Source: Metallosphaera yellowstonensis MK1
GTDB lineage: Archaea; Thermoproteota; Thermoprotei_A; Sulfolobales; Sulfolobaceae
Direction: 5' to 3'
DNA length: 64,000 nt
Assembly (NCBI RefSeq): GCF_000243315.1
Contig: NZ_JH597770.1
Location: 19,859 to 83,858, forward strand
How positions within the stretch are numbered: the stretch's first letter is position 1; each line of letters starts with the position of its first letter. The notes under the pieces are model-generated. The model was not told where the DNA came from and did not search any database. It worked only from the letters and a program-made list of their open reading frames with translations. The translations under genes and the position numbers were made by a program. Below are positions 19,375 through 61,179 of this stretch, in pieces.

Positions 19375-20582
19375 CAGCAGTTATGGGACTTTAACGTAAC
19401 TTAAAGATTTTCATCAGCCGGCGGTCCGCCTAAATGACGTTCAACGAACCTGAGGAACGCCTCCACGCTCCTCAGGTTAAGAGCCCCCACCAGCTCCCTG
19501 ACGACGTTGGTCATGATGGTGAAGATCGTGAGGTAGCCCTGGAGCCTCTCCCTCCTCCAGAACGAGGACTCCTCCAGTCCCAAGGCCTTGACGTCCCTGT
19601 GGAGCTCCTCGATCTCCCACCTCATCCTCCAGGCCTCCTCGATCTCCTCCTCGCTGAGCGAGAGGTCGGTCGTGTAGAGGTACCTGGCCTGTGTCCCGGA
19701 GTCACGTTTATATTTCCGGACTAGCAACTTTACCGTAATCGCTCGGCCTCCCAGGGTCAGGTCGGCGTAGTAGACTCCGGGGGGTAGGTCTCCCACTCGG
19801 AGGTGTCCCTCCACCTCCTCGAGGGTCCCCTGGACCGACTCGACCCTGGGCTCGGTTGGACTTGAGCTCAGACACCACGTTGTCCGTCACGAGCTTCTCG
19901 GACCAGTACCACGAGTCGAAGACGACCCTGGACACGCGGAAGCGCTCCTTGAGCACGTCCAACATCTCCCTGGCCAAGTCGATCTTGGTCTTGAACTCGT
20001 TGACCATCCCCAAGTCCAACATCTTCCTCACGGCGTAGGGGAAGGCCCCCACCATGAACGTCCTGCCCGTGGAGAGGTCCACTATGGCGACCGTGAGGAG
20101 CTGCACGCCCCTCTCGAACCTCCCGTGGGCGTGACAGTAGATCCAGTAGTTCCCGTGGGGGCTCACGTCCTTCCCCCTGGAGTACTCCTTGTGGTCCACG
20201 GTGTCGTCTATGATGACGGCCACCTGACCCTTCACCAGCCCCGACAGGACCTCCAGGTAGTCCCTCCACGCGTCGTGGAGTTCTCCCAACGCCTCCAGCA
20301 GGTTTGCGTAGTCCAACCCGAACGTCTCGGCCCCGTTCCTCACGCTGGCCCTCCCACCCACCAGGACCATGAGGACTAGCGCCAACCCGACCTTCCTGCT
20401 CCTCCCCTTCCTCCTGACCACGCCCAGAACCTGGTTGACCGCCTTGACCAGCCTCTCCCTAGCCAACTCGATTTGTCCTTTTCCGTTCAGCATCTTTTCA
20501 GCAGGAAGACGTCGAAAAATTAAAAACTTCTCGTTAATACCAACTTCTTGGTATTACCTCCCTAAGATTCCCATAACTGCTG
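19375..20582 (-). mobile_element. ISC1217-like element, copy 1, 7-bp target duplication
   Basis: A 1208-bp element with terminal inverted repeats cagcagttatggga. It is flanked by cccgtga on both sides (19368-19374 and 20583-20589). Length, termini and transposase type are compatible with the Sulfolobus ISC1217 group; that name is not verified. The same termini are used by the family A MITEs. Confidence 0.85.
19401..20493 (-). pseudogene. DDE transposase of ISC1217-like element, frameshifted
   Basis: IS4-superfamily-like DDE transposase split into two frames: N-terminal part 20493 to about 19845 and C-terminal part about 19845 to 19401. It shows VAVIIDDTVDHKEY (first Asp), VVFDSWYWSEKLV (second Asp) and RWEIEELHRDVK (Glu) across the break. 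The joined protein would have about 364 residues. Copy 2 has its frame break at the same codon region, so the shift was inherited from a common parent or is a recoding signal. Confidence 0.82.
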
Positions 20583-21321: not shown

Positions 21322-21684
21322 ATGATCATGAAGAGGGTCCTAAGGATTCCACGTTTCAATAAGGAGGGGAAACCGAAGACCTTAGAGTTGCTCATGGATT
21401 CTCCTAATCTAAACGAGAAAGGTTTTCCTCAAGAGGCCAGGCTGCTCCTAGTCATAGACGATGGAAAAAATAGGATTGGATTCCAACTCACCACCGCTGA
21501 AGCGGCGCTACTCTACCAGAGGCTGAGCTACGTTCTCAACGAGACAGCAAAAGAATATATTCAAATCGAAGAGAAGAATAGGAAAAACTTCGAGTCCAGA
21601 AAGGCCAGAGATAGTAGAGACGAGGAGAAGGAAGAGATACCTCCTGAGTACTTTGAGGATATGCCTCCTGATGATCAACTTTGA
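21322..21684 (+). CDS. Hypothetical protein with charged C-terminal tail
   Basis: A 120-residue protein of unknown function. The first 75 residues look folded (strands around LLLVIDD and a helix TTAEAALLYQRLSYVLNETA); the last 40 are highly charged and probably disordered (EEKEEIPPEYFEDMPPDDQL). A TATA-like stretch at 21291-21302 favours the ATG at 21328 (MKRVLRIP) as a leaderless start. Its last 149 bp are antisense to the 3' end of the PNGase A-like gene. Confidence 0.6.
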   Translation: MIMKRVLRIPRFNKEGKPKTLELLMDSPNLNEKGFPQEARLLLVIDDGKNRIGFQLTTAEAALLYQRLSYVLNETAKEYIQIEEKNRKNFESRKARDSRDEEKEEIPPEYFEDMPPDDQL

Positions 21685-23434
21685 AGTCCATGGGGCTAAA
21701 GGCTCTCTCGATCTTAAGATAGTAACCTGTGGAGTTGACCGTCCTGTTCTGTTTGGCTACGGCAAGGAAAACCTCCCTATACCCTACTCCGTCTATCAGG
21801 TACTGAGCCTGTAAGGTCTTGCTGGTTATGGCGTTGTTACTGAGGAGCTTTACCAATACCGCTCCGCCGTAGGTGTTGATGACCTCTATGACTCCAGAGA
21901 ACCCTCCAGTGGCGTTAACTTTCTCGTTCAGGTACTGTTGAGTGGTGTGGCCGTTGATAGAAAACGTGTAACTGTACGTGGCCCCTAGCTCTATGGAGCC
22001 GTTTTGTGCATAGGACAGGTTGAATGGGATGACGTTCGTCGGAGTTATTGGGGTAGCGAACGCCGATATTTGGAGAGTGACCGGGTAATTCCCAGTGATT
22101 TTTAGGGATGAGTTGTACATCCCTGTTTCAGTAGCCACCTCAGAGAACTGCTCATCCAGATAGGCAAACTGGTAGATAGGATTGAAGGATTGCGATGCGT
22201 AGAACTTCCCCTGCTGAACCACGTAGACCGTCTCGGCACCGTGGGTGAACATCAGGGTGGAGGAGTACCTCAGCAGGTAGTTTCCGCTCTCCTGATAGTG
22301 CAGTCCCGAAAATCCTCCGTTGAATATGGGGGAGGAGTCCAGGAACCTGGAGTAGGCCACGGTGAGGTGGCCTCCCAAGAGCGGATTGGACTCATTTATC
22401 CAGAGCAGGAGTACTCCGGAGATTTCCCAGGAGAACGCCGGAGAGTGATTGACCTGCTCAGCGGTCTGGAGGTTTGTGACAGACACGGTGATATTGGCCT
22501 TGTCTCCTAAGGCCAGGAAGGGTGTCAGGTCCACTTGATAGGGAGTATGGAAGGCTAACGTATTTATGCTGGGCATGGGTTTCCACCAGAACAAGTCTAT
22601 CCCACCTGTATACACGGTCTCGTATGGGGGAACCACGCCCGCTATCAGCCCGTCATAGGAGAGTAGGATGTCCCTGGTAGCAGGCTCGTTGGAATACCAG
22701 AACTCATCCAAGCCTCCCCCCTCCTCATAGAGTAGGGCGGAGACCCTGAAGGTTCCGTTGGGTAACGAGACCTGAGACGTGTAAGAACTCTTGGACGGGT
22801 TCAGTATTACGTAGGAGTAGTTGTAGTGAAATGTTCCATTGACGAACAATGGAACAAAGCCGTTGGGGAGCCCATAGGGTTTCTGACCTGGGTACATGAA
22901 CAACGTCACGTTCAAGAGGTAGAGCCCAGTTATGTTCACCTTCGCGTCGTAGAAGTTGACCAGCACGGGTTCGAAGGTTACGTTACCCTGTAATAGGTTC
23001 TCAAAAGGCGTCAAGTCTACCGAGGCCGTGGAATTTAATATCTCCTGGGTGGATCCCCAAAACACAGGTACTCCGTTCACGAATATGTAGAGAGGTCTGT
23101 CAAACTGGGTCCCGTTGACTTCCCTGACACTCACGTTCATCAGGACGAAACTATAATTACCCTTGGGAATGGTCACGTGTATGTAGTAAGGTTTCCATGC
23201 TGTGTCGTTGAAGACTAAGTTCTGTACGACCTTCACCACGACCGGCGTCTCGTTGGGAGGAAGGTAGCCGAAGGCCTCGAAGGAGTAATAGCTCGGGTCA
23301 ACTCCCAAGTTGCCAGAGGTGACGTTGAAGGTGAAGTACCGAGGGTGATACATTGGGGAGGCAAGGGACAGTGAAGGTAATGAAGAGGCACATAACACGA
23401 ACAGTATAAACAAGGCTAACGTTAACCTGGTCAT
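21536..23434 (-). CDS. Secreted PNGase A-like peptide:N-glycanase
   Basis: Resembles peptide-N4-(N-acetyl-beta-glucosaminyl)asparagine amidase A, which removes N-glycans from glycoproteins or peptides. It has 632 residues: a signal peptide (1-25, hydrophobic, ending SLAS), then a PNGase A-type region with DRPLYIFVNGVPVFWGSTQE (about 112-131), SVDLTPF and GLDEFWYSNEP (about 232-242), and a second jelly-roll-like half. It is rich in N-x-S/T sequons, as Sulfolobales surface proteins are. Its ATG overlaps the stop of the S53 protease gene by 4 bp, so the two are translated together. The last 40 residues lie antisense to 21322-21684 and may be an extension rather than part of the fold. Catalytic residues were not mapped. 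Confidence 0.78.
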   Translation of the reverse strand: MTRLTLALFILFVLCASSLPSLSLASPMYHPRYFTFNVTSGNLGVDPSYYSFEAFGYLPPNETPVVVKVVQNLVFNDTAWKPYYIHVTIPKGNYSFVLMNVSVREVNGTQFDRPLYIFVNGVPVFWGSTQEILNSTASVDLTPFENLLQGNVTFEPVLVNFYDAKVNITGLYLLNVTLFMYPGQKPYGLPNGFVPLFVNGTFHYNYSYVILNPSKSSYTSQVSLPNGTFRVSALLYEEGGGLDEFWYSNEPATRDILLSYDGLIAGVVPPYETVYTGGIDLFWWKPMPSINTLAFHTPYQVDLTPFLALGDKANITVSVTNLQTAEQVNHSPAFSWEISGVLLLWINESNPLLGGHLTVAYSRFLDSSPIFNGGFSGLHYQESGNYLLRYSSTLMFTHGAETVYVVQQGKFYASQSFNPIYQFAYLDEQFSEVATETGMYNSSLKITGNYPVTLQISAFATPITPTNVIPFNLSYAQNGSIELGATYSYTFSINGHTTQQYLNEKVNATGGFSGVIEVINTYGGAVLVKLLSNNAITSKTLQAQYLIDGVGYREVFLAVAKQNRTVNSTGYYLKIERAFSPMDFKVDHQEAYPQSTQEVSLPSPRLYYLWPFWTRSFSYSSLRFEYILLLSR

Positions 23435-26400
23435 CTCCTCATCACCCTGAAGAATAGGTAAACCAGGAGAGCTCCCAAGATTGATGCAACCGAGATGAGG
23501 ATAACCTCTAGGTTGAAGATTTGGGACTGAAGGCTCAATTGCTCGTATAAATTGTCTACCCGGAAGGTCAGGTTATACGTCAAACCGTTCTTGAGAGTCA
23601 GTTGATACGTGTATATTCCCGAAGGGAGGGAACTGGAATTGAAGGGGATGTGTAGTTCCAACACACCTGCCTCCTCTGAGTACGTGAAGTTCTGTGGGAT
23701 CCCGTTCAGGAGTAGCTCCACTGGAGTATAACCTGGGGTAACTGTTACGTTGACGATTTCGAACTTATGCTTTACCACAGAAGTTACGTTGAGAATTTGT
23801 GGTACCGAGATAGCTATCTTGGGGGCAGTGATAGTAGCTCCCTGGAGCAAGACGTCACCACCAGAGACGTTGAAGGCATAGTTGTTAGACTTGACTACGG
23901 TAGAGATGAGAGTAACGTTAGACCCGACTGAATTTATGACCGGACCCTCTCCTGAGATCGTGGAACTCTCCACGATCAACGTGGAGTTCTCCAGTATAAC
24001 CTTGGAGAGTGTGGAGTCCACGACGTAGGCCTTTGCGTCTATTAATATGAGCGTTCCAGCTGAGGAATCATATAGGTTCACGTTCGTCCCCTTTACAGTC
24101 ATCAACGGAGAGTAAACCTGGTATAAGGAGTAACTAGAGCCGTTGTACAGGGATGAATAGACGGAGTCTCCTTGTTCTAACACCACGTTACCCAGGAAAG
24201 TCAGAGGCATGACCTGGAGGTCAGTGACATAGAAGGCTGGATAACCCAGAGCAGACGTGCCCTCCACTATGGCTTTCCATGGGCCAGAGATAACCCCTGG
24301 TTGACTGCCCCTGAACATACTACCGTTGATGTACGAGGGTACCTGGAAGTGGCCCACCCACTCCCTCAGGGAGGAGTTGTACTGCAGAGGAACGCCGAAA
24401 CTAAATTCCTCCAGGAGGGACTCGTATCCGGTTCCTGAAGGTATCAGGGTGAGAGTGAAACTACCCTGAGTTACCTCACTACCGTTTGGATACCTTATGT
24501 TAGCCATCACATTGACCTGTTGACCTTCATAGACCACTGGAGTCACGTTGAGGGACACGAGTAGCTGAGAGGGGAGAACGTAGAACCAGGTGGTGAAGTT
24601 TCCTTCCTCTATGCCTACTGATGTGTTTACACTGGCCTCATAGATCACTTGATATAAACCTTGTGTGAAATTGCTGGGGATGGTGAAGTTCGCCTCCTTT
24701 AGTCCGAAGAGGTAAAACACCCCATACTGGATCGACTCCGGTGCAGGGACTAGGGGAACCTGCGCCACTAAGGTACCGTTATGATACACGAGGGCAGTGA
24801 CATTTGATGAGAAGAGACCCAGGCCGAAGCTACTGATGGTCGCTGAGAAGAACGTTACGTTCTGTCCGGGTGCAACTCCAGGCATTCCGTCAATCACTGG
24901 AGTGTATACGGTTCCGTAGACCGCTGGGCCGAAGTAGAGGTATGTGTACGCTGAACCTAGAGAGGAGTTCACTACAAGTAGGTACGTTCCCTGAGGCATT
25001 CCAGGTAAGAGTGAGAACTGATTCTCATAGATACCAGGTTGCTGGGGTACCTGTAAGAGAGTCAGGTTCAATACCGTCTTTCCGTCCCTAATCAGGTAAG
25101 CGTTAACGGTCATGTTACTTAAGGGAGTGCCGTTTACGGAGGTCAGTTGGACCTGGATGGGAATCGGTTCGTTGAGAGGAAGAGGGAAGGAGAAGGGGAA
25201 GGGAACAGGTTGAACTATGACTAGGGAGTCACCTATATCTATGTCAGTCTGCCCCACACCACCCAGGCCAGAGGACGTACCATTGACTATGACGCTCCAA
25301 ATGTTGGCAGGATCGCCAGGTGATACCGTGAACTCTCCGTTCCAATAAGTCCCGTTGAAGATCAGCGGGACAGTTCGCAAGAATCCTGAGGTGGTATAGA
25401 TATATGCGGAGAAGTTGCCTTGATCCACTATAGTACCATTCTCTAACGAAATGTATGCTACGACTTTCACTGTGGCGTTATATGGGTACCAAGGGTAAGT
25501 GGAGTTTGACGAAAATGTGGAGACCGATACCTCCAGCTGGTTTAGAGACTCGTATTCCTTGAAAGCGGCGAGGAGGTAACCGTAGTTCGGTGACCCGAGA
25601 CCTGTGACCATATTGTAACCATTCCTCGAACTGTATAGTCCATTGAATCCCTGATATATGGGGTGGAAGGCCTTATCGTAAAGTGAGGAGTTCATGATCC
25701 AGTATAGGGCGGGATTGAGCAACCCTAACGGATGCCCCAAGACAGATTCAGCATCGGCTATCATTCCGGCCCAAAGGGGAGAGGCCAGGGATGTACCTCC
25801 TATGACCTCCTGAACCCCCTCAACGTACACTATCATCCCAGTGTAAGGGTTTGCGTCAGCGGCCACGTCAGGTAGTTCCCTCATGTTCGCATGGAGGTAC
25901 TTAATCTGATACCATGGTGCTGGGAAAAGCGTACTCATGCCCCCACCAGAAGAGACACTGGATACCGAGGGGTAGAAGTACTGCGGTAGAACGCTCCAAG
26001 CAGTTTCAAACCCGTAATTCGCACTGGCGTTCTTGTTCTCTAACGAGCCCTTTGTGACGTTCAAGTATAGTGACGTTCCCCCAACTGCAGTTACGAAGGG
26101 AGATGAAGCAGGAAAGTTAACTCCACCGTATGTCGTAGTAGTACCGTCATATGCACCTGTATCTCCAGAGGAGGCGAAGAAGGTTATCCCTTCGGCTGCA
26201 CCTAGAGCAAAGTAATAGTCCAAGAAGGGGTAATTCGGTGTACTCATACCTTGGAAGTATGCATAAAATCCTGAGGCCCCTATTACGTTCTCGGGCAACC
26301 CCCAACTCATGGACACTACCTGGGCTAAGTCCTCTGATACCACGAGGTCTACCGCATTGAACAACGCTGCCCCTGGGTTAGATGCTATAACGGCTATCAC

Positions 26401-27261
26401 GTGAGCGTAGGGAGCCATGGTGTGGACTGCCTCCACGTCGAGGGCGGTCTCTGCATCCCAGCCAGAGAAGATTCCGAAGATGGGGTGATAAGCTCCTACA
26501 GGGAGTATGGTGAGGTTGATGGGAGGAAGATGGAACTGTATATCGAAGGATTTGAGATCCTGAACAAGTTCTGGATCCCCGTAGGCGTCTATCACCGCCA
26601 CCGTGACGTTCTTACCTGCGGGAGTTACGTTGTAGGCCCCCTGTAATTCCTGGGGAGTGTAGTAGAGTGCAGAGAACTGAAACCCGTAATAGTTGGTGGG
26701 AGAAGTTGATGGAATTAGTCCTTGAGTCCCTAGACGGCCCAGGACTATGTCTTCTGGCATGATTTGAGTGAAGTTAGTGAGACCGGCTATGAGCACCCCC
26801 TCCAGTTGGAGAGGAACGACTGGGGGAGTCAGGGGCCTATAGTAAATCTCCCCCTGATCGTTGAATAGACCTAGTTTAGTCTGGAATACCTGTTCCACCA
26901 GAGACGCGTTAGCCAATACCATCAGTGAGAAAGGACTCTGGTAGACTACGTGAAATCCCTTGGACTTAAAGTAATGAACTAAGTTAGCCTCCTCCTCCAC
27001 GTTTCCAAAAAGGGATATCAATTGAGTCCTGTTCAGTGGTTTTATTTGATGATTGCCCACCTCCTGGGCCAGGAGGAGAAGGTAGTTCATGTCCTTGGGA
27101 GGTATGAACACTGATATACATACCCCAGCACTCTCAGGTAGTGATCCCTGACTGATGCCCTGAAACTGAGGACCGTAATACTGAGCGTAGGCTGTCGACT
27201 GAATGACTGGGATTGAACTCATTATTACTAAACCTATCACGATAAGAGATACTTTCATCAC
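23431..27261 (-). CDS. S53 (kumamolisin/sedolisin) protease, surface-anchored
   Basis: Acid serine-carboxyl endopeptidase of 1276 residues acting outside the cell. It has a signal peptide (1-26), a pro-kumamolisin propeptide (about 45-190) and a catalytic domain (about 200-575) with the full set: Glu~271 and Asp~275 in WDAETALDVEAVH, oxyanion Asp~367 in SSGDTGA, Ser~489 in GGTSLASPLWAGM, and the calcium-site region MVTGLGSPN. A sequon-rich beta extension of about 650 residues follows, then a C-terminal transmembrane anchor (ILISVASILGALLVYLF) and a basic tail. A TATA box at 27281-27288 gives a nearly leaderless mRNA; GTG at 27261 or ATG at 27258 is the start. It forms an operon with the PNGase A-like gene. 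Confidence 0.92.
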   Translation of the reverse strand: MMKVSLIVIGLVIMSSIPVIQSTAYAQYYGPQFQGISQGSLPESAGVCISVFIPPKDMNYLLLLAQEVGNHQIKPLNRTQLISLFGNVEEEANLVHYFKSKGFHVVYQSPFSLMVLANASLVEQVFQTKLGLFNDQGEIYYRPLTPPVVPLQLEGVLIAGLTNFTQIMPEDIVLGRLGTQGLIPSTSPTNYYGFQFSALYYTPQELQGAYNVTPAGKNVTVAVIDAYGDPELVQDLKSFDIQFHLPPINLTILPVGAYHPIFGIFSGWDAETALDVEAVHTMAPYAHVIAVIASNPGAALFNAVDLVVSEDLAQVVSMSWGLPENVIGASGFYAYFQGMSTPNYPFLDYYFALGAAEGITFFASSGDTGAYDGTTTTYGGVNFPASSPFVTAVGGTSLYLNVTKGSLENKNASANYGFETAWSVLPQYFYPSVSSVSSGGGMSTLFPAPWYQIKYLHANMRELPDVAADANPYTGMIVYVEGVQEVIGGTSLASPLWAGMIADAESVLGHPLGLLNPALYWIMNSSLYDKAFHPIYQGFNGLYSSRNGYNMVTGLGSPNYGYLLAAFKEYESLNQLEVSVSTFSSNSTYPWYPYNATVKVVAYISLENGTIVDQGNFSAYIYTTSGFLRTVPLIFNGTYWNGEFTVSPGDPANIWSVIVNGTSSGLGGVGQTDIDIGDSLVIVQPVPFPFSFPLPLNEPIPIQVQLTSVNGTPLSNMTVNAYLIRDGKTVLNLTLLQVPQQPGIYENQFSLLPGMPQGTYLLVVNSSLGSAYTYLYFGPAVYGTVYTPVIDGMPGVAPGQNVTFFSATISSFGLGLFSSNVTALVYHNGTLVAQVPLVPAPESIQYGVFYLFGLKEANFTIPSNFTQGLYQVIYEASVNTSVGIEEGNFTTWFYVLPSQLLVSLNVTPVVYEGQQVNVMANIRYPNGSEVTQGSFTLTLIPSGTGYESLLEEFSFGVPLQYNSSLREWVGHFQVPSYINGSMFRGSQPGVISGPWKAIVEGTSALGYPAFYVTDLQVMPLTFLGNVVLEQGDSVYSSLYNGSSYSLYQVYSPLMTVKGTNVNLYDSSAGTLILIDAKAYVVDSTLSKVILENSTLIVESSTISGEGPVINSVGSNVTLISTVVKSNNYAFNVSGGDVLLQGATITAPKIAISVPQILNVTSVVKHKFEIVNVTVTPGYTPVELLLNGIPQNFTYSEEAGVLELHIPFNSSSLPSGIYTYQLTLKNGLTYNLTFRVDNLYEQLSLQSQIFNLEVILISVASILGALLVYLFFRVMRR

Positions 27262-27280
27262 AATAAGGTTGCATGTCCCT

Positions 27281-27288
27281 TATATTAA
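27281..27288 (-). promoter_or_regulatory. TATA box of the S53-PNGase operon
   Basis: ttaatata on the minus strand, about 22-30 bp before the start codon of the S53 gene. Confidence 0.5.
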
Positions 27289-27337
27289 CCTTGTCCAAAG
27301 ATATAAGGAAAGAAAATGTGGAATTGAAACTCTCCTT

Positions 27338-28462
27338 TTATAAGTATTGTAGAAGTGAGCCCAGGTAACTTAGCAGTAGAGATTGGCTGGCCGCCTTGGC
27401 AAAATTCAACTCAGTGACGAGATAGTTTCCGCTCACCGCGTAGAGTATCAAGGTGTTGTTGTTCAGCGGATTCGGGTTGGCTACGAAGTAAGTGGAGCCA
27501 TCTAGTTGGCCTGTGGAGACTATTGCACTATGACCTGTGTAGTTAACGTATGACTGGAAGAAGTTTAAGGCGCTCTGATATTGTGATTGAGCCTGTTGAC
27601 TGGAGTTGAATTCGGCGACTTGTACTGAGAGGAGAGAGGTGGAGTTTGCGTATACAGCGACATAAGCCAAGGTCAAATTGATGGCGGGCTGATGCATAGC
27701 TGATGCATAGTGCCTGAGATCATTAGCATGCTTCCCTAAGTTGTTATATAAGGACTGGGTCAAGTTCACCCCCCTGAGTGCGGTATAATTCACATAGGCC
27801 CAGCTAACCATTCTCATGCCCTGTTCTTGAGGAAAGATAGAGGTCGGGGACGGAGTTGGGGGCCTTGAATTCAGTACATCCTGATATTGTATCATTAAGA
27901 GGTTTAAAGCGGACTGAGCTGGATTCGAAGTACCCTTGACGAGGTCTGCAACCAGATACTTTCCGTCGTAACCCAAAGCCAATCCTGTTGACGATATATT
28001 ACCATAGACGTACTCTAACTCGCCAGACTTGTTCACATTGAAGTCGTAACCTGCCACAAGGATCAACGCAAGCTTTCTGAAGTAAGCTGTGGCGTTGGGA
28101 GAAGTTACTGTTGAGAGAAGAGAGACCGCCGTGGAGTTCTTGTTACTGAGAACTTCTAAATAGGTCGTTCCAAAGTTCTTGCTCAAATTCTGGACGAGCA
28201 TACCTGGAGTGGTGTTCGTGGGAAGTAGCCCAGATAAATTACTTACCTCAAGCCACGCTCCTACAACGTACCCGTTCTGGCCAGTAGCGCTACCGGCCTG
28301 TGCCACTGTGGGAAGCAGTGTGGAGGAAGGTGTCGTGATTACAATTGGCTTTACGGTATTAGTTTGGGATGAATTATGAACCGTGGAGATTTCCATGAAA
28401 TATACCACAGAGGAGAGTATCAAGACCACGGCAACTATGCCTACTACTGTAGCCGATTTCAT
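27338..28462 (-). CDS. Secreted/anchored protein of unknown function
   Basis: About 374 residues starting at MKSATVVGIV. ATG 28462 was chosen over an upstream TTG at 28501 because gaggt lies about 10 bp upstream. A hydrophobic signal anchor (about 5-23) is followed by a Ser/Thr/Asn-rich extracellular part with many N-glycosylation sequons and no recognised domain. It lies just upstream of the S53 protease gene on the same strand with 77 bp between, but that gap contains the protease promoter. Divergent from the PadR gene. Confidence 0.7.
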   Translation of the reverse strand: MKSATVVGIVAVVLILSSVVYFMEISTVHNSSQTNTVKPIVITTPSSTLLPTVAQAGSATGQNGYVVGAWLEVSNLSGLLPTNTTPGMLVQNLSKNFGTTYLEVLSNKNSTAVSLLSTVTSPNATAYFRKLALILVAGYDFNVNKSGELEYVYGNISSTGLALGYDGKYLVADLVKGTSNPAQSALNLLMIQYQDVLNSRPPTPSPTSIFPQEQGMRMVSWAYVNYTALRGVNLTQSLYNNLGKHANDLRHYASAMHQPAINLTLAYVAVYANSTSLLSVQVAEFNSSQQAQSQYQSALNFFQSYVNYTGHSAIVSTGQLDGSTYFVANPNPLNNNTLILYAVSGNYLVTELNFAKAASQSLLLSYLGSLLQYL

Positions 28463-28587
28463 GAATGTGATTGACCTCCCCTCGAATATAAACGTTTGCA
28501 AAATACTTATTTAGACATGGACAATCGAAACGAAAAATCGACTCGATTTTCCGATAGCTATTTATATTACTTCTGAGAGTTCTTTTT

Positions 28588-29004
28588 ATGATCCATCCTG
28601 GATCTGGACACTGGAGACATAGGAGAGGACTTAGGTACCTGGTCCTCGCCTCCTTAAGGGAATCACCTAAGAACGGGGTAGAAATTATAAGAAGCCTGGA
28701 GGACATGAGCATGGGATTTTGGAGACCATCTCCTGGCTCCATTTACCCCTTACTCGCCACAATGGTCGAGGAAGGACTCATCAGGAAGAGAGAGGACGGA
28801 AAGTATGAGCTGACCGAGGAAGGCAGGGGACACCTGGGAATCGTGGCGGAGTCTAGACCTTCAACCCCTGAGGAGATGCTGAGGGAGATGGAAATCTACG
28901 TGGAGTACTTCCAGGACCTAAAGGTTACCGAGCCGGTGAAATTGGAGGGACTGAAGGAAAGAATACGATCTCTGGGTGAGAAGTTACTGAAAGTGGGGTC
29001 GTAA
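28588..29004 (+). CDS. PadR-family transcriptional regulator
   Basis: Winged-helix repressor of the PadR family, 138 residues. The typical N-terminus is present: RGLRYLVLASLRESPKNGVE, then the wing region PSPGSIYPLLATMVEEGLI and KYELTEEGR; a C-terminal helical dimerisation part follows (about 85-138). The gene is divergent from the secreted protein at 27338 with only about 125 bp between starts, so it may control that gene, itself, and the coupled downstream NifX-like gene (1-bp gap). An AT-rich TATA-like stretch is at 28558-28568. Confidence 0.88.
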   Translation: MIHPGSGHWRHRRGLRYLVLASLRESPKNGVEIIRSLEDMSMGFWRPSPGSIYPLLATMVEEGLIRKREDGKYELTEEGRGHLGIVAESRPSTPEEMLREMEIYVEYFQDLKVTEPVKLEGLKERIRSLGEKLLKVGS

Positions 29005-29005
29005 A

Positions 29006-29371
29006 ATGAGGGTAGCAGTTCCAGTCACTGGCGGAGTCGTTGACGGTCCAGGTGAAGGAGAGGTCGTAAGGATATATGAGGTGGGGAACGACGTCAAGCT
29101 CATTGAGGAGTATGAGAACCCAGCTAAGTACGCCATGGCCGCCAGAGGCGTTCACATGCTGAAATCTGCGTTGGAGAGGGGAGCGGAGGCCTTCATAGTG
29201 GCAGAAATCGGTCCTCCAGGATTGAGGTACCTCGAGTCCAAAGCTAAGATTTACCTTGGAAAAGGTTATCCGGTGGAGCTAGCACTTGAGAGGTTCATGA
29301 AGGGGGAGTTACCTGAGATTAAGGAGCCGACCCACGGTCATCATCACGAGAGAAAAGTAAACAGGTTTTAA
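29006..29371 (+). CDS. NifX/NafY-like dinitrogenase cofactor-domain protein
   Basis: A 121-residue protein with the small alpha/beta fold of the dinitrogenase iron-molybdenum cofactor biosynthesis family (MRVAVPVTGG at the start, then VHMLKSALERGAEAFIVAEIG in the middle). In non-diazotrophs such proteins are thought to bind metal clusters. The C-terminus is His-rich (THGHHHERK), an obvious metal-binding tail. It starts 1 bp after the PadR stop and so is cotranscribed with a regulator. No nif genes are nearby. Confidence 0.82.
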   Translation: MRVAVPVTGGVVDGPGEGEVVRIYEVGNDVKLIEEYENPAKYAMAARGVHMLKSALERGAEAFIVAEIGPPGLRYLESKAKIYLGKGYPVELALERFMKGELPEIKEPTHGHHHERKVNRF

Positions 29372-29374
29372 AGA

Positions 29375-30748
29375 CTAAACTTCAGCTTGACTGTGCGTCG
29401 ACTCTCCTCCCCTATCTTCCGCCTTATCCTCAGCTTTGCTCATTTCCATGACTTCAGCTGCCAAGAAACCCAAAATTATGGATCCCATGAAGAAATAAAC
29501 TATTACTGGAGAGGATTTAGATATAGACAGAAATAGTTCAAAACATGAAAAGAGGATGGCCCCAATGGAGAGGGTAAGCCAACCCACTCTCTTCGACATC
29601 TTGCTCAAGGAGATCTTGAAAAGTGAGAAGTCTGACGCGAGGTGAACGAACAAGTTGGAGAGAAGTGACACCAGACCAGCCACCGTAAAGGCGAGGAAGG
29701 CGTTGAAGTTAGACAGCAGTTCTCCGCCCAAGACTATCACAAAGAACGCAACGATCGATACCAAAACTGCGTTAACGGGCCCTCTACCAGGGTTTAGCTT
29801 TCCCAAGGACTCAGGGAGGAATCCTCCCCTGGCCATTGCAAATATAGTCCTCGAGGTTGACATCAAATAACTCAGAGTCGCCAATATCCCGTCGTTGGCA
29901 GCCGCGAACAGTACAAACGCTAACGTAAGTAACCCGAACCTATCTTCTATGAGGTGAAGCAGATCTAAATTGTTAGCCGACATATGGAAGTATATCAAGT
30001 GATCTGTTATGCCGTATATATCGAAAGCCGCCAACAGGCCTCCCATTAGTATGACAGTCACTATGGCCTTAGGTACGCTCTTCTCTGGATTCTTTACCTC
30101 TCCTGATAGTGGGGTTATGGAACCGTAGCCTGTGGGAATACTGGAACCAAAGAGAATACCCAAAGCCAATGAAGAGAGGTTCAAGTTAGAAGGTACTGGG
30201 TTGTAGAGGTAGAAATGGGTAGATCCCATGAACAGAACTGCCAGAGCAGACATCATCCCGATCTCCATGACACTAGCAACTATTGCGTACTTGGCTGTTG
30301 GCCTTATGCCAAGAACCGCAAACAGGCTGGATATGCCTAGAATGGGCAGTGCTATTAACAGAGAAGGTATCTCCAATATGGTGGAGAGGATATACGAAGC
30401 TCCTAGGACGTAAGCAGAACCATACATGGTGGAGTAGAGGAGGTAAAGCCACCCTGTCTCAAATCCCAGCCTCTTTGACAGAGAATAGTAGGCGTAAGTA
30501 TAATACCCCCCAGTCTTTGTGAACTTTCTCGACAACCTGTAGACTACTAGCCCGTTTAGGAGCACCAGTAAAGTGCCTAGGACTATGGCTAGGGAGGCTG
30601 CCTGGCCTACATAGAGGTAAACTGCCACACCGTAGGTCAATACGCTAAGGAAGGGAGATTGCCCACCTAGGCTTATGAAGACAAGGTCCAGGATGCCGAT
30701 CTCCCGCTTAGGTTCCTCTTTCCTCACTTTCTCCAGCGATTTAGCCAT
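29375..30748 (-). CDS. APC-superfamily amino acid permease
   Basis: Membrane transporter, 457 residues, about 12 hydrophobic segments. The first helix has the APC pattern LVFISLGGQSPFLSVLTYG, and GSSIPTGYGSITPLSGEVKNP resembles the helix 6 and loop region of amino-acid/polyamine permeases. Substrate unknown. The C-terminal tail is charged (EDKAEDRGGESTHSQAEV). It converges on the NifX-like gene with 3 bp between stops, so neither has room for a separate terminator. Confidence 0.88.
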   Translation of the reverse strand: MAKSLEKVRKEEPKREIGILDLVFISLGGQSPFLSVLTYGVAVYLYVGQAASLAIVLGTLLVLLNGLVVYRLSRKFTKTGGYYTYAYYSLSKRLGFETGWLYLLYSTMYGSAYVLGASYILSTILEIPSLLIALPILGISSLFAVLGIRPTAKYAIVASVMEIGMMSALAVLFMGSTHFYLYNPVPSNLNLSSLALGILFGSSIPTGYGSITPLSGEVKNPEKSVPKAIVTVILMGGLLAAFDIYGITDHLIYFHMSANNLDLLHLIEDRFGLLTLAFVLFAAANDGILATLSYLMSTSRTIFAMARGGFLPESLGKLNPGRGPVNAVLVSIVAFFVIVLGGELLSNFNAFLAFTVAGLVSLLSNLFVHLASDFSLFKISLSKMSKRVGWLTLSIGAILFSCFELFLSISKSSPVIVYFFMGSIILGFLAAEVMEMSKAEDKAEDRGGESTHSQAEV

Positions 30749-60273: not shown

Positions 60274-61179
60274 ATGGACTACATGCTCCTCGTGGGAGTA
60301 GATGCAGGAGGCACTAAGACAGCCTCCGTCTCAGCTGAGTGTGTGAGTGGGAAGGGCAAGATCTTGAATAGATACGTGACTAAGGGAGCTAACTTCCATA
60401 ACGTGGGTCTCAGGAGGGCCTACAGTAGGATAGCTACTGCCGTCCGTGAGGTCTCCGGGGACAGGAAACCCGACGTTGTTGTCCTCGGTATAGCTGGCCT
60501 TGACTCCAAATACGACGAGATAGTATTACGTGAGACGTTGAAGGATTTGGGCGGTAAGGTCGTCATGGATAATGATTCGTTCTTCGTGCTCTACGGCAAC
60601 GTGAAGGGCGGTAAGGGAGCCGTCACAATCTCCGGCACGGGTAGCGTAGTTCTGGGGTACGATGGTACCAACAAGATCAGGGCCGAGGGTGCGGGATGGT
60701 TCTTGTCGGACACAGGTTCAGCCTACTGGGTTGGGAGGGAGGCCTTACGATACGTCACCAGAGTCCTTCAAGGAAGAGAGGAAGGATCTCCCATGGTCGA
60801 AAGGATTATGAGAAGCATAAGGGCGAAGGACCTTGACGACATTATCTACTGGGTTTATCATAAGGGACACAGGGTAGAGAGAGTGGCTGGTATAGCTAAG
60901 GTAGTAGACTCCTCATCTGAGGCAGGGGACATGAAGGCCAAGGAACTCCTGAGGAGAGGCGCGGAGCTATTAGCCGAGGCCGCGGTTTATGTGGCGAGGA
61001 TAGTTAACGTTGACCAGGTAATCATATCAGGGGGCATGTTCTCCTCCACAACCTACACAAACTCCTTTAGAGAGGTACTAAGTCGTTTCAATCTCGAGAC
61101 TAGGAGGACAGAGGTTAGCCCGGAGTATGGGGCCCTATTGTACGCCTCCAGACTAAAGGGATGTGACTTAATTACATAA
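60274..61179 (+). CDS. Sugar kinase (hexokinase/GlcNAc kinase, BadF/BcrA family)
   Basis: ASKHA-fold ATP-dependent kinase, 301 residues, closely resembling the broad-specificity S. tokodaii hexokinase that phosphorylates glucose, glucosamine and GlcNAc. Phosphate-binding loop GVDAGGTKT (about 7-15), catalytic region VVMDNDSFFVLYG, second loop TISGTGSVVLGYDG and EGAGWFLSDTGSAYWVGREAL are all present, and VIISGGMFSS closes the adenosine site. Monocistronic. It could act on sugars released from glycoproteins, which links loosely to the secreted PNGase-like enzyme. Confidence 0.9.
   Translation: MDYMLLVGVDAGGTKTASVSAECVSGKGKILNRYVTKGANFHNVGLRRAYSRIATAVREVSGDRKPDVVVLGIAGLDSKYDEIVLRETLKDLGGKVVMDNDSFFVLYGNVKGGKGAVTISGTGSVVLGYDGTNKIRAEGAGWFLSDTGSAYWVGREALRYVTRVLQGREEGSPMVERIMRSIRAKDLDDIIYWVYHKGHRVERVAGIAKVVDSSSEAGDMKAKELLRRGAELLAEAAVYVARIVNVDQVIISGGMFSSTTYTNSFREVLSRFNLETRRTEVSPEYGALLYASRLKGCDLIT

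Follow-up and report, generated by a model that had tools for sequence, protein, structure and literature searches.

A conserved S53 protease–PNGase gene pair of Sulfolobaceae with a predicted role in extracellular N-glycoprotein degradation

Introduction

How do Sulfolobales break down their N-glycoproteins? We know of no established breakdown route for the surface proteins of this order, which are densely covered with chitobiose-linked N-glycans, and a locus of Metallosphaera yellowstonensis MK1 bears directly on the question. The locus lies within a stretch of 64,000 nucleotides (contig NZ_JH597770.1, positions 19,859 to 83,858; hereafter the window), in which two genes encode a secreted and membrane-anchored S53 (sedolisin/kumamolisin-type) protease of 1276 residues (23431..27261, recognized from its open reading frame and domain matches) and, directly downstream, a secreted PNGase A-family (PF12222) amidase of 632 residues (21536..23434). 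Features of the pair are given as window positions on the minus strand. Both open reading frames, with their 4-bp overlap, lie where an initial annotation made from the sequence letters had placed them when it proposed a two-gene operon for digesting glycoproteins. We consider it likely that the pair forms a two-step extracellular machine degrading N-glycoproteins in acid, with an enzymatic activity that is predicted. As a two-gene unit found in every Sulfolobaceae genome examined, it provides a genetically testable candidate for such breakdown in a tractable host (saci_1147/1148 of Sulfolobus acidocaldarius).

Results

The two genes are linked throughout the Sulfolobaceae

Linkage, like the families, fold, key residues and anchoring of the two proteins, was established from sequence and comparison. 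At the junction, the S53 stop codon overlaps the PNGase start codon in the motif ATGA (23431..23434; junction letters GATGAGGAG-ATGA-CC), and a Shine-Dalgarno-like GGTGAT read from the sequence lies 6 nt 5' of the PNGase start (23441..23446). The window genome carries a single PF12222 gene. Within the order, 55 of 214 genomes contain such a gene. The window's family (Sulfolobaceae, 11 genera) accounts for 31 of them, which is every genome of the family examined, and in each of these 31 an S53 gene (42-64% identity) stands directly upstream of the PNGase gene. Same strand, constant order and overlap or near-overlap, i.e. the properties expected of an operon, were thus found in 31/31 family genomes, with the overlap being exactly 4 bp in 21 of them and the remainder falling between -20 and +8 nt. 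Further S53 paralogues occur in the family, mostly at about 30-38% identity, and none of them adjoins PNGase.

Adjacency in all 31 genomes argues that the pairing is not due to chance, and the linkage in relatives on which the initial annotation had staked its proposal was borne out within the family. When the same 17-kb loci were compared, none of the other genes around the pair was shared by more than 10 of 30 relatives, and sharing was for the most part confined to the window's own genus; a larger conserved operon was accordingly considered and rejected. Since the pair stays constant while its other neighbours change, selection keeps both genes together. The reading of the two genes as an operon also agrees with the published co-regulation of saci_1147 and saci_1148 (PMC8578740).

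The downstream protein is a PNGase A-family member with conserved acidic residues

The downstream protein matched PF12222 with 101 bits (curated cut-off 25.3; E=7.3e-29) across residues 69-350 (22385..23230), a region that includes the invariant D112-R113, E244 and W284. Its only membrane-type segment is an N-terminal hydrophobic, signal-peptide-like stretch at about residues 1-25 (23360..23434; hydropathy 2.23 at residue 4), which qualifies it as a secreted protein. A single-sequence search matched PNGase Bb (9vla) at 2.2e-6, and a profile built from 47 relatives matched the same entry at 1.5e-32 when searched against the PDB. The AlphaFold2 model (pLDDT 83, pTM 0.81) adopts a double jelly-roll fold, and a fold search with this model returned PNGase Bb first (4.8e-29, TM score 0.73 on the target), with the zebrafish acid PNGase (9lwg) and enzymes of the PNGase F type next in the ranking. 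Each of the 14 best matches is a PNGase or a putative hydrolase of that same group. PNGase Bb, which was solved with a glycopeptide, is thus the closest solved structure by profile as well as by fold, at a low identity of about 16%.

Across 41 homologues, among them PNGase H+ of Terriglobus roseus, residues D112, R113, E244, F245 and W284 never vary, and D112 and E244 are aligned to the D and E of PNGase Bb. We infer that these two residues are the equivalents of D60 and E206 in PNGase F; zebrafish Ngly2 depends on the Asp and Glu at the corresponding positions (PMC12753239). The T. roseus protein shares 30% identity with the window PNGase over 314 residues (E=1e-28), and its recombinant form is active with an optimum at pH 2.6 (PMC4231336). 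PNGase H+ and its Dyella and acidobacterial relatives belong to the same Pfam family and carry the same invariant motifs, but they are bacterial and mesophilic, and only 2/57 bacterial loci include an S53 gene at a distance of up to 8 kb. The homology to PNGase A, which had been set beforehand as the point on which the proposal could fail, is hence strong both in sequence and in fold. The protein first labelled “plant-type” also has well-characterized acid relatives in bacteria, such as the Terriglobus enzyme.

The upstream protein is an anchored S53 protease

The protease comprises a pro-kumamolisin activation domain (residues 37-164; 26770..27153; PF09286, 3.8e-11) and an S53 catalytic domain (residues 199-565; 25567..26667), the latter matching kumamolisin (1t1e) at 3.7e-32 with phmmer. 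Sedolisin and human TPP1 were also matched (TPP1 at 3.6e-11), and a search of NCBIfam gave no useful result. The Glu-Asp-Ser triad (E271, D275, S491) and the oxyanion residue D367 are kept by virtually every one of 37 homologues, so that the active site is complete, as first annotated. The window protein shares its pro-domain, catalytic Glu/Asp/Ser and oxyanion Asp with kumamolisin, sedolisin and TPP1, and adds to them a long beta-rich stalk (residues 566-1238; 23548..25566; AlphaFold2 model and Foldseek) and a C-terminal transmembrane helix (residues 1253-1271; 23449..23505; hydropathy 2.68, and a helix in the AlphaFold2 model). Besides an N-terminal hydrophobic segment, this helix is the single membrane segment, consistent with the anchoring that had been proposed.

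In the model, which is to be read for local folds only (pLDDT 79.6, pTM 0.44), the stalk consists of Ig-like beta-sandwich domains, many short regular strands and another beta-sandwich, followed by the membrane helix. Judged from the strand pattern, the strands at about residues 1045-1165 look beta-helix-like. A Foldseek search with the stalk matched only generic tandem Ig/MG-domain proteins, and the modelled region looks like a spacer that would keep the protease at a distance from the membrane.

The positions of D316 and D338 in kumamolisin, which we take to be Ca2+ ligands, correspond to P534 and N550 in the window protein, and are Pro/Gln and Asn in nearly all of the 37 homologues. Both carboxylates are thus missing (at 25567-25670 of the window) across the clade formed by the window protein and these homologues, which may represent a Ca2+-free group of sedolisins. 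A Ca2+ site towards the C-terminal end of the catalytic domain is typical of family S53 but does not define it.

Discussion

A predicted route for N-glycoprotein degradation

Substrate linkage, expression and peptide requirement are documented in the literature. The N-glycans of S. acidocaldarius are chitobiose-linked and its surface layer (S-layer) is densely glycosylated (PMC2948927), and N-glycans of a Sulfolobus strain were released by PNGase F (PMC12042106). Taken together, the chitobiose core and this release indicate that the bond required by a PNGase is present. Saci_1147 and Saci_1148 can be considered the orthologous pair because they are adjacent and carry matching annotations, and because the next gene, Saci_1149, which belongs to the 3-hydroxypropionate/4-hydroxybutyrate pathway, matches an acyl-CoA-synthetase-like gene downstream of the pair in one of the compared loci (L055). 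The two are termed “subtilase” and “asparagine amidase” in expression papers, which handle them separately. Upon nutrient depletion, saci_1148 goes up while the N-glycosylation genes aglH, agl2 and aglB go down, for which the authors proposed glycan recycling (PMC6335949), and Saci_1147 and Saci_1148 fall in the same iModulon, both decreasing on xylose (PMC8578740).

We propose the following sequence of events, in which activity, order and uptake are all predicted. The S53 protease, carrying its own pro-domain and held at the membrane by the C-terminal helix on its long beta-rich stalk, would mature at low pH and produce glycopeptides from glycoproteins of the cell surface or the environment. 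Next, the amidase would hydrolyse the bond between N-acetylglucosamine and Asn, which would set the glycan with its chitobiose base free and leave Asp in place of Asn, and the peptides, perhaps along with the glycans, could be taken up. PNGase A deglycosylates peptides only (PMC10154615), and the protease would therefore act first. Stripping and cutting by both enzymes together, as initially suggested, is supported as far as the pair is concerned, but the order is amended to one in which cutting probably precedes deglycosylation. Both enzymes are also rich in N-glycosylation sequons (22 in the PNGase, compared to 6.7 +/- 2.2 in shuffles, and 39 in the protease, compared to 11.8 +/- 2.9), and from these counts are probably glycoproteins themselves, so they would need the safeguard that peptide-only action of the PNGase provides.

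The induction on nutrient depletion suggests recycling rather than biosynthetic processing, with either the S-layer and surface glycoproteins of the same cell or the proteins of dead neighbours as the source. Surface proteins with their sugar coats are thus probably recycled by the pair on the outside of the cell, comparable to what the animal lysosome does on the inside. The lysosome likewise combines these two enzyme types, TPP1 and, in fish, the acid PNGase Ngly2, in an acidic compartment (PMC12753239). The likeness is one of analogy only, as the archaeal pair is extracellular and Ngly2, a homologue of the PNGase F type, is only distantly related. Another comparison is the tetrabrachion-STABLE complex of Staphylothermus, also a surface-held archaeal protease and proposed to feed peptide metabolism (PMC5744192), but here the protease is an S8 subtilase on a separate stalk, and no PNGase has been described.

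Alternative explanations

Rather than digesting proteins, the pair could remodel the cell surface by trimming or maturing S-layer, pili or archaella of the same cell, for instance by altering the N-glycans through which Ups pili recognize the species. A protease anchored at the cell surface and a pair that is universal in the family whatever the lifestyle would suit such a role, as would the part played by N-glycans in recognition among Sulfolobales, described in one report (PMC7064770). Moreover, PNGase in one Desulfurococcales genus has a subtilase and a coiled-coil stalk protein for neighbours, an arrangement resembling that of S-layer protease complexes. We nevertheless regard remodelling as unlikely: expression tracks carbon supply, not mating or ultraviolet light, in the literature consulted (PMC6335949, PMC8578740), characterized enzymes of the PNGase A and PNGase F types favour peptides or denatured protein (PMC10154615), and both proteins are sequon-rich themselves.

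Joint control could also explain the arrangement, the genes being neighbours merely as carbon-starvation exoenzymes with different substrates. However, an exclusive and mostly overlapping adjacency over 11 genera, kept while other neighbours change, exceeds what regulation needs, and the Marsarchaeota pair is placed alike in both gene trees (see below). Even with both genes in a regulon with other catabolic genes (PMC8578740) and with S53 able to pair with a thermopsin instead, we find this quite improbable. A purely glycan-binding role, in which the PF12222 protein would lack catalysis and hold glycoproteins for the protease, is very improbable. Jelly-roll folds do also occur in carbohydrate-binding modules (CBM35 matches in the fold search), and the structural match to PNGase Bb has only about 16% identity, but the acidic pair and the motif around it are unchanged between archaea and the active bacterial PNGase H+.

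Extracellular degradation of N-glycoproteins thus remains our preferred explanation, and several observations weigh against it. Literature searches for an archaeal PNGase found nothing specific, and enzyme activity of any archaeal member is not reported in the literature consulted. The expression of saci_1147 (“subtilase”) is not purely that of a starvation gene, as it is highly transcribed in an overfeeding study (PMC11486757). Outside the family, two of three Acidilobus-like genomes with PNGase have their S53 orthologue elsewhere in the chromosome, Vulcanisaeta has PNGase with only a distant, unlinked S53, one other metagenome-assembled genome (MAG) likewise has a distant S53 only, and in two Caldisphaera MAGs, both incomplete (G017, G020), S53 is followed by a thermopsin (PF05317, 2.3e-26 in G017) at the site where PNGase would be expected.

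Distribution outside the Sulfolobaceae and possible transfer

Related pairs turned up in Marsarchaeota G2 (L093) and, among the Acidilobaceae, in Caldisphaera as well as in one genome out of three that are Acidilobus-like. A MAG of a further family (L099/L170) also has such a pair, with its PNGase broken into two reading frames. Acid-clade PNGase genomes of the Acidilobaceae all carry an S53 orthologue (5/5, 46-50% identity), which is unlinked in two. Among genomes with divergent PNGase clades, S53 matches were found in 0/14. Among these 14 are relatives labelled Desulfurococcales, Staphylothermus and Aeropyrum, which are mostly neutrophiles.

Marsarchaeota G2 joins Sulfolobales strain HS-7 in the PNGase tree (support 100/99) and in the S53 tree (support 91/91), the latter having been resolved with full-length proteins and without one very long branch after a first tree had left Marsarchaeota unplaced. 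This agreement between both gene trees suggests that the pair was transferred as a unit, on the basis of a single MAG contig for which contamination is possible. A wider proposal, which we put forward only tentatively, is that Sulfolobaceae and a few acidophilic relatives possess a dedicated external system for recycling N-glycoproteins, matched to their eukaryote-like chitobiose N-glycans, that it includes the first archaeal PNGase, and that the cassette moved between archaeal orders as a unit. Both proteins fall into known families, and for one species the PNGase gene was mentioned before. No description of a family-wide conserved S53-PNGase unit, of its complete linkage or of its likely transfer was found in the literature searched. 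If active at 70-80 C and pH 2-3, the PNGase would be useful for glycan analysis and hydrogen-exchange mass spectrometry.

A bacterial counterpart of the pair was also considered and rejected, the 2/57 bacterial PNGase loci with an S53 gene within 8 kb being judged not remarkable. S53 genes would be expected to be common in acid-soil bacteria. In one Acidobacteria MAG (L154, 1327-5687), PNGase is followed 320 bp further on the same strand by an S53 gene with Ig domains.

Neighbouring genes and additional observations

The 76-bp intergenic region 5' of the S53 gene (27262..27337, minus strand) contains, by eye, TATA-like AT-rich stretches TTAATATAAGG, and is a candidate promoter of the pair. Adjoining it, window positions 27338-30748 encode a 387-residue secreted protein, a divergent PadR regulator and an amino-acid permease, which are kept mainly inside the window's own genus. 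Just 3' of the pair (19401-20493, minus strand), two overlapping frames resemble a DDE transposase in pieces, the larger of which is absent from all 30 relative loci. The hexokinase with possible N-acetylglucosamine activity noted in the initial annotation 33 kb away is a real gene (60274-61179) encoding a BadF/ROK-type ATPase, but its link to the pair as a kinase for that sugar was rejected, with no evidence of linkage.

In two Caldisphaera MAG loci (L172, 1009-6723; L173, 3-3297), a thermopsin gene directly follows the S53 orthologue, one acid exoenzyme having been exchanged for another at the same site. A draft genome of Vulcanisaeta (L171, 7785-9583) and the MAG CPBay_23 (L170, 7773-9624) each have PNGase in two separate frames, whereas it is intact in a related complete genome (L168); a frameshift, decay or an assembly error are candidate causes. 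In the Desulfurococcales genus mentioned above (L064, 7242-16737, minus strand; L065, 16-3036), PNGase lies downstream of the secreted coiled-coil stalk protein, which has a C-terminal membrane helix, and in L064 also downstream of an S8 subtilase (1.5e-28), so that a tetrabrachion/STABLE-like gene set stands next to it. Finally, one MAG (G034) contains two PNGase loci (L078, L079) on two contigs with the same neighbouring genes, which could represent either a duplication or two mixed strains.

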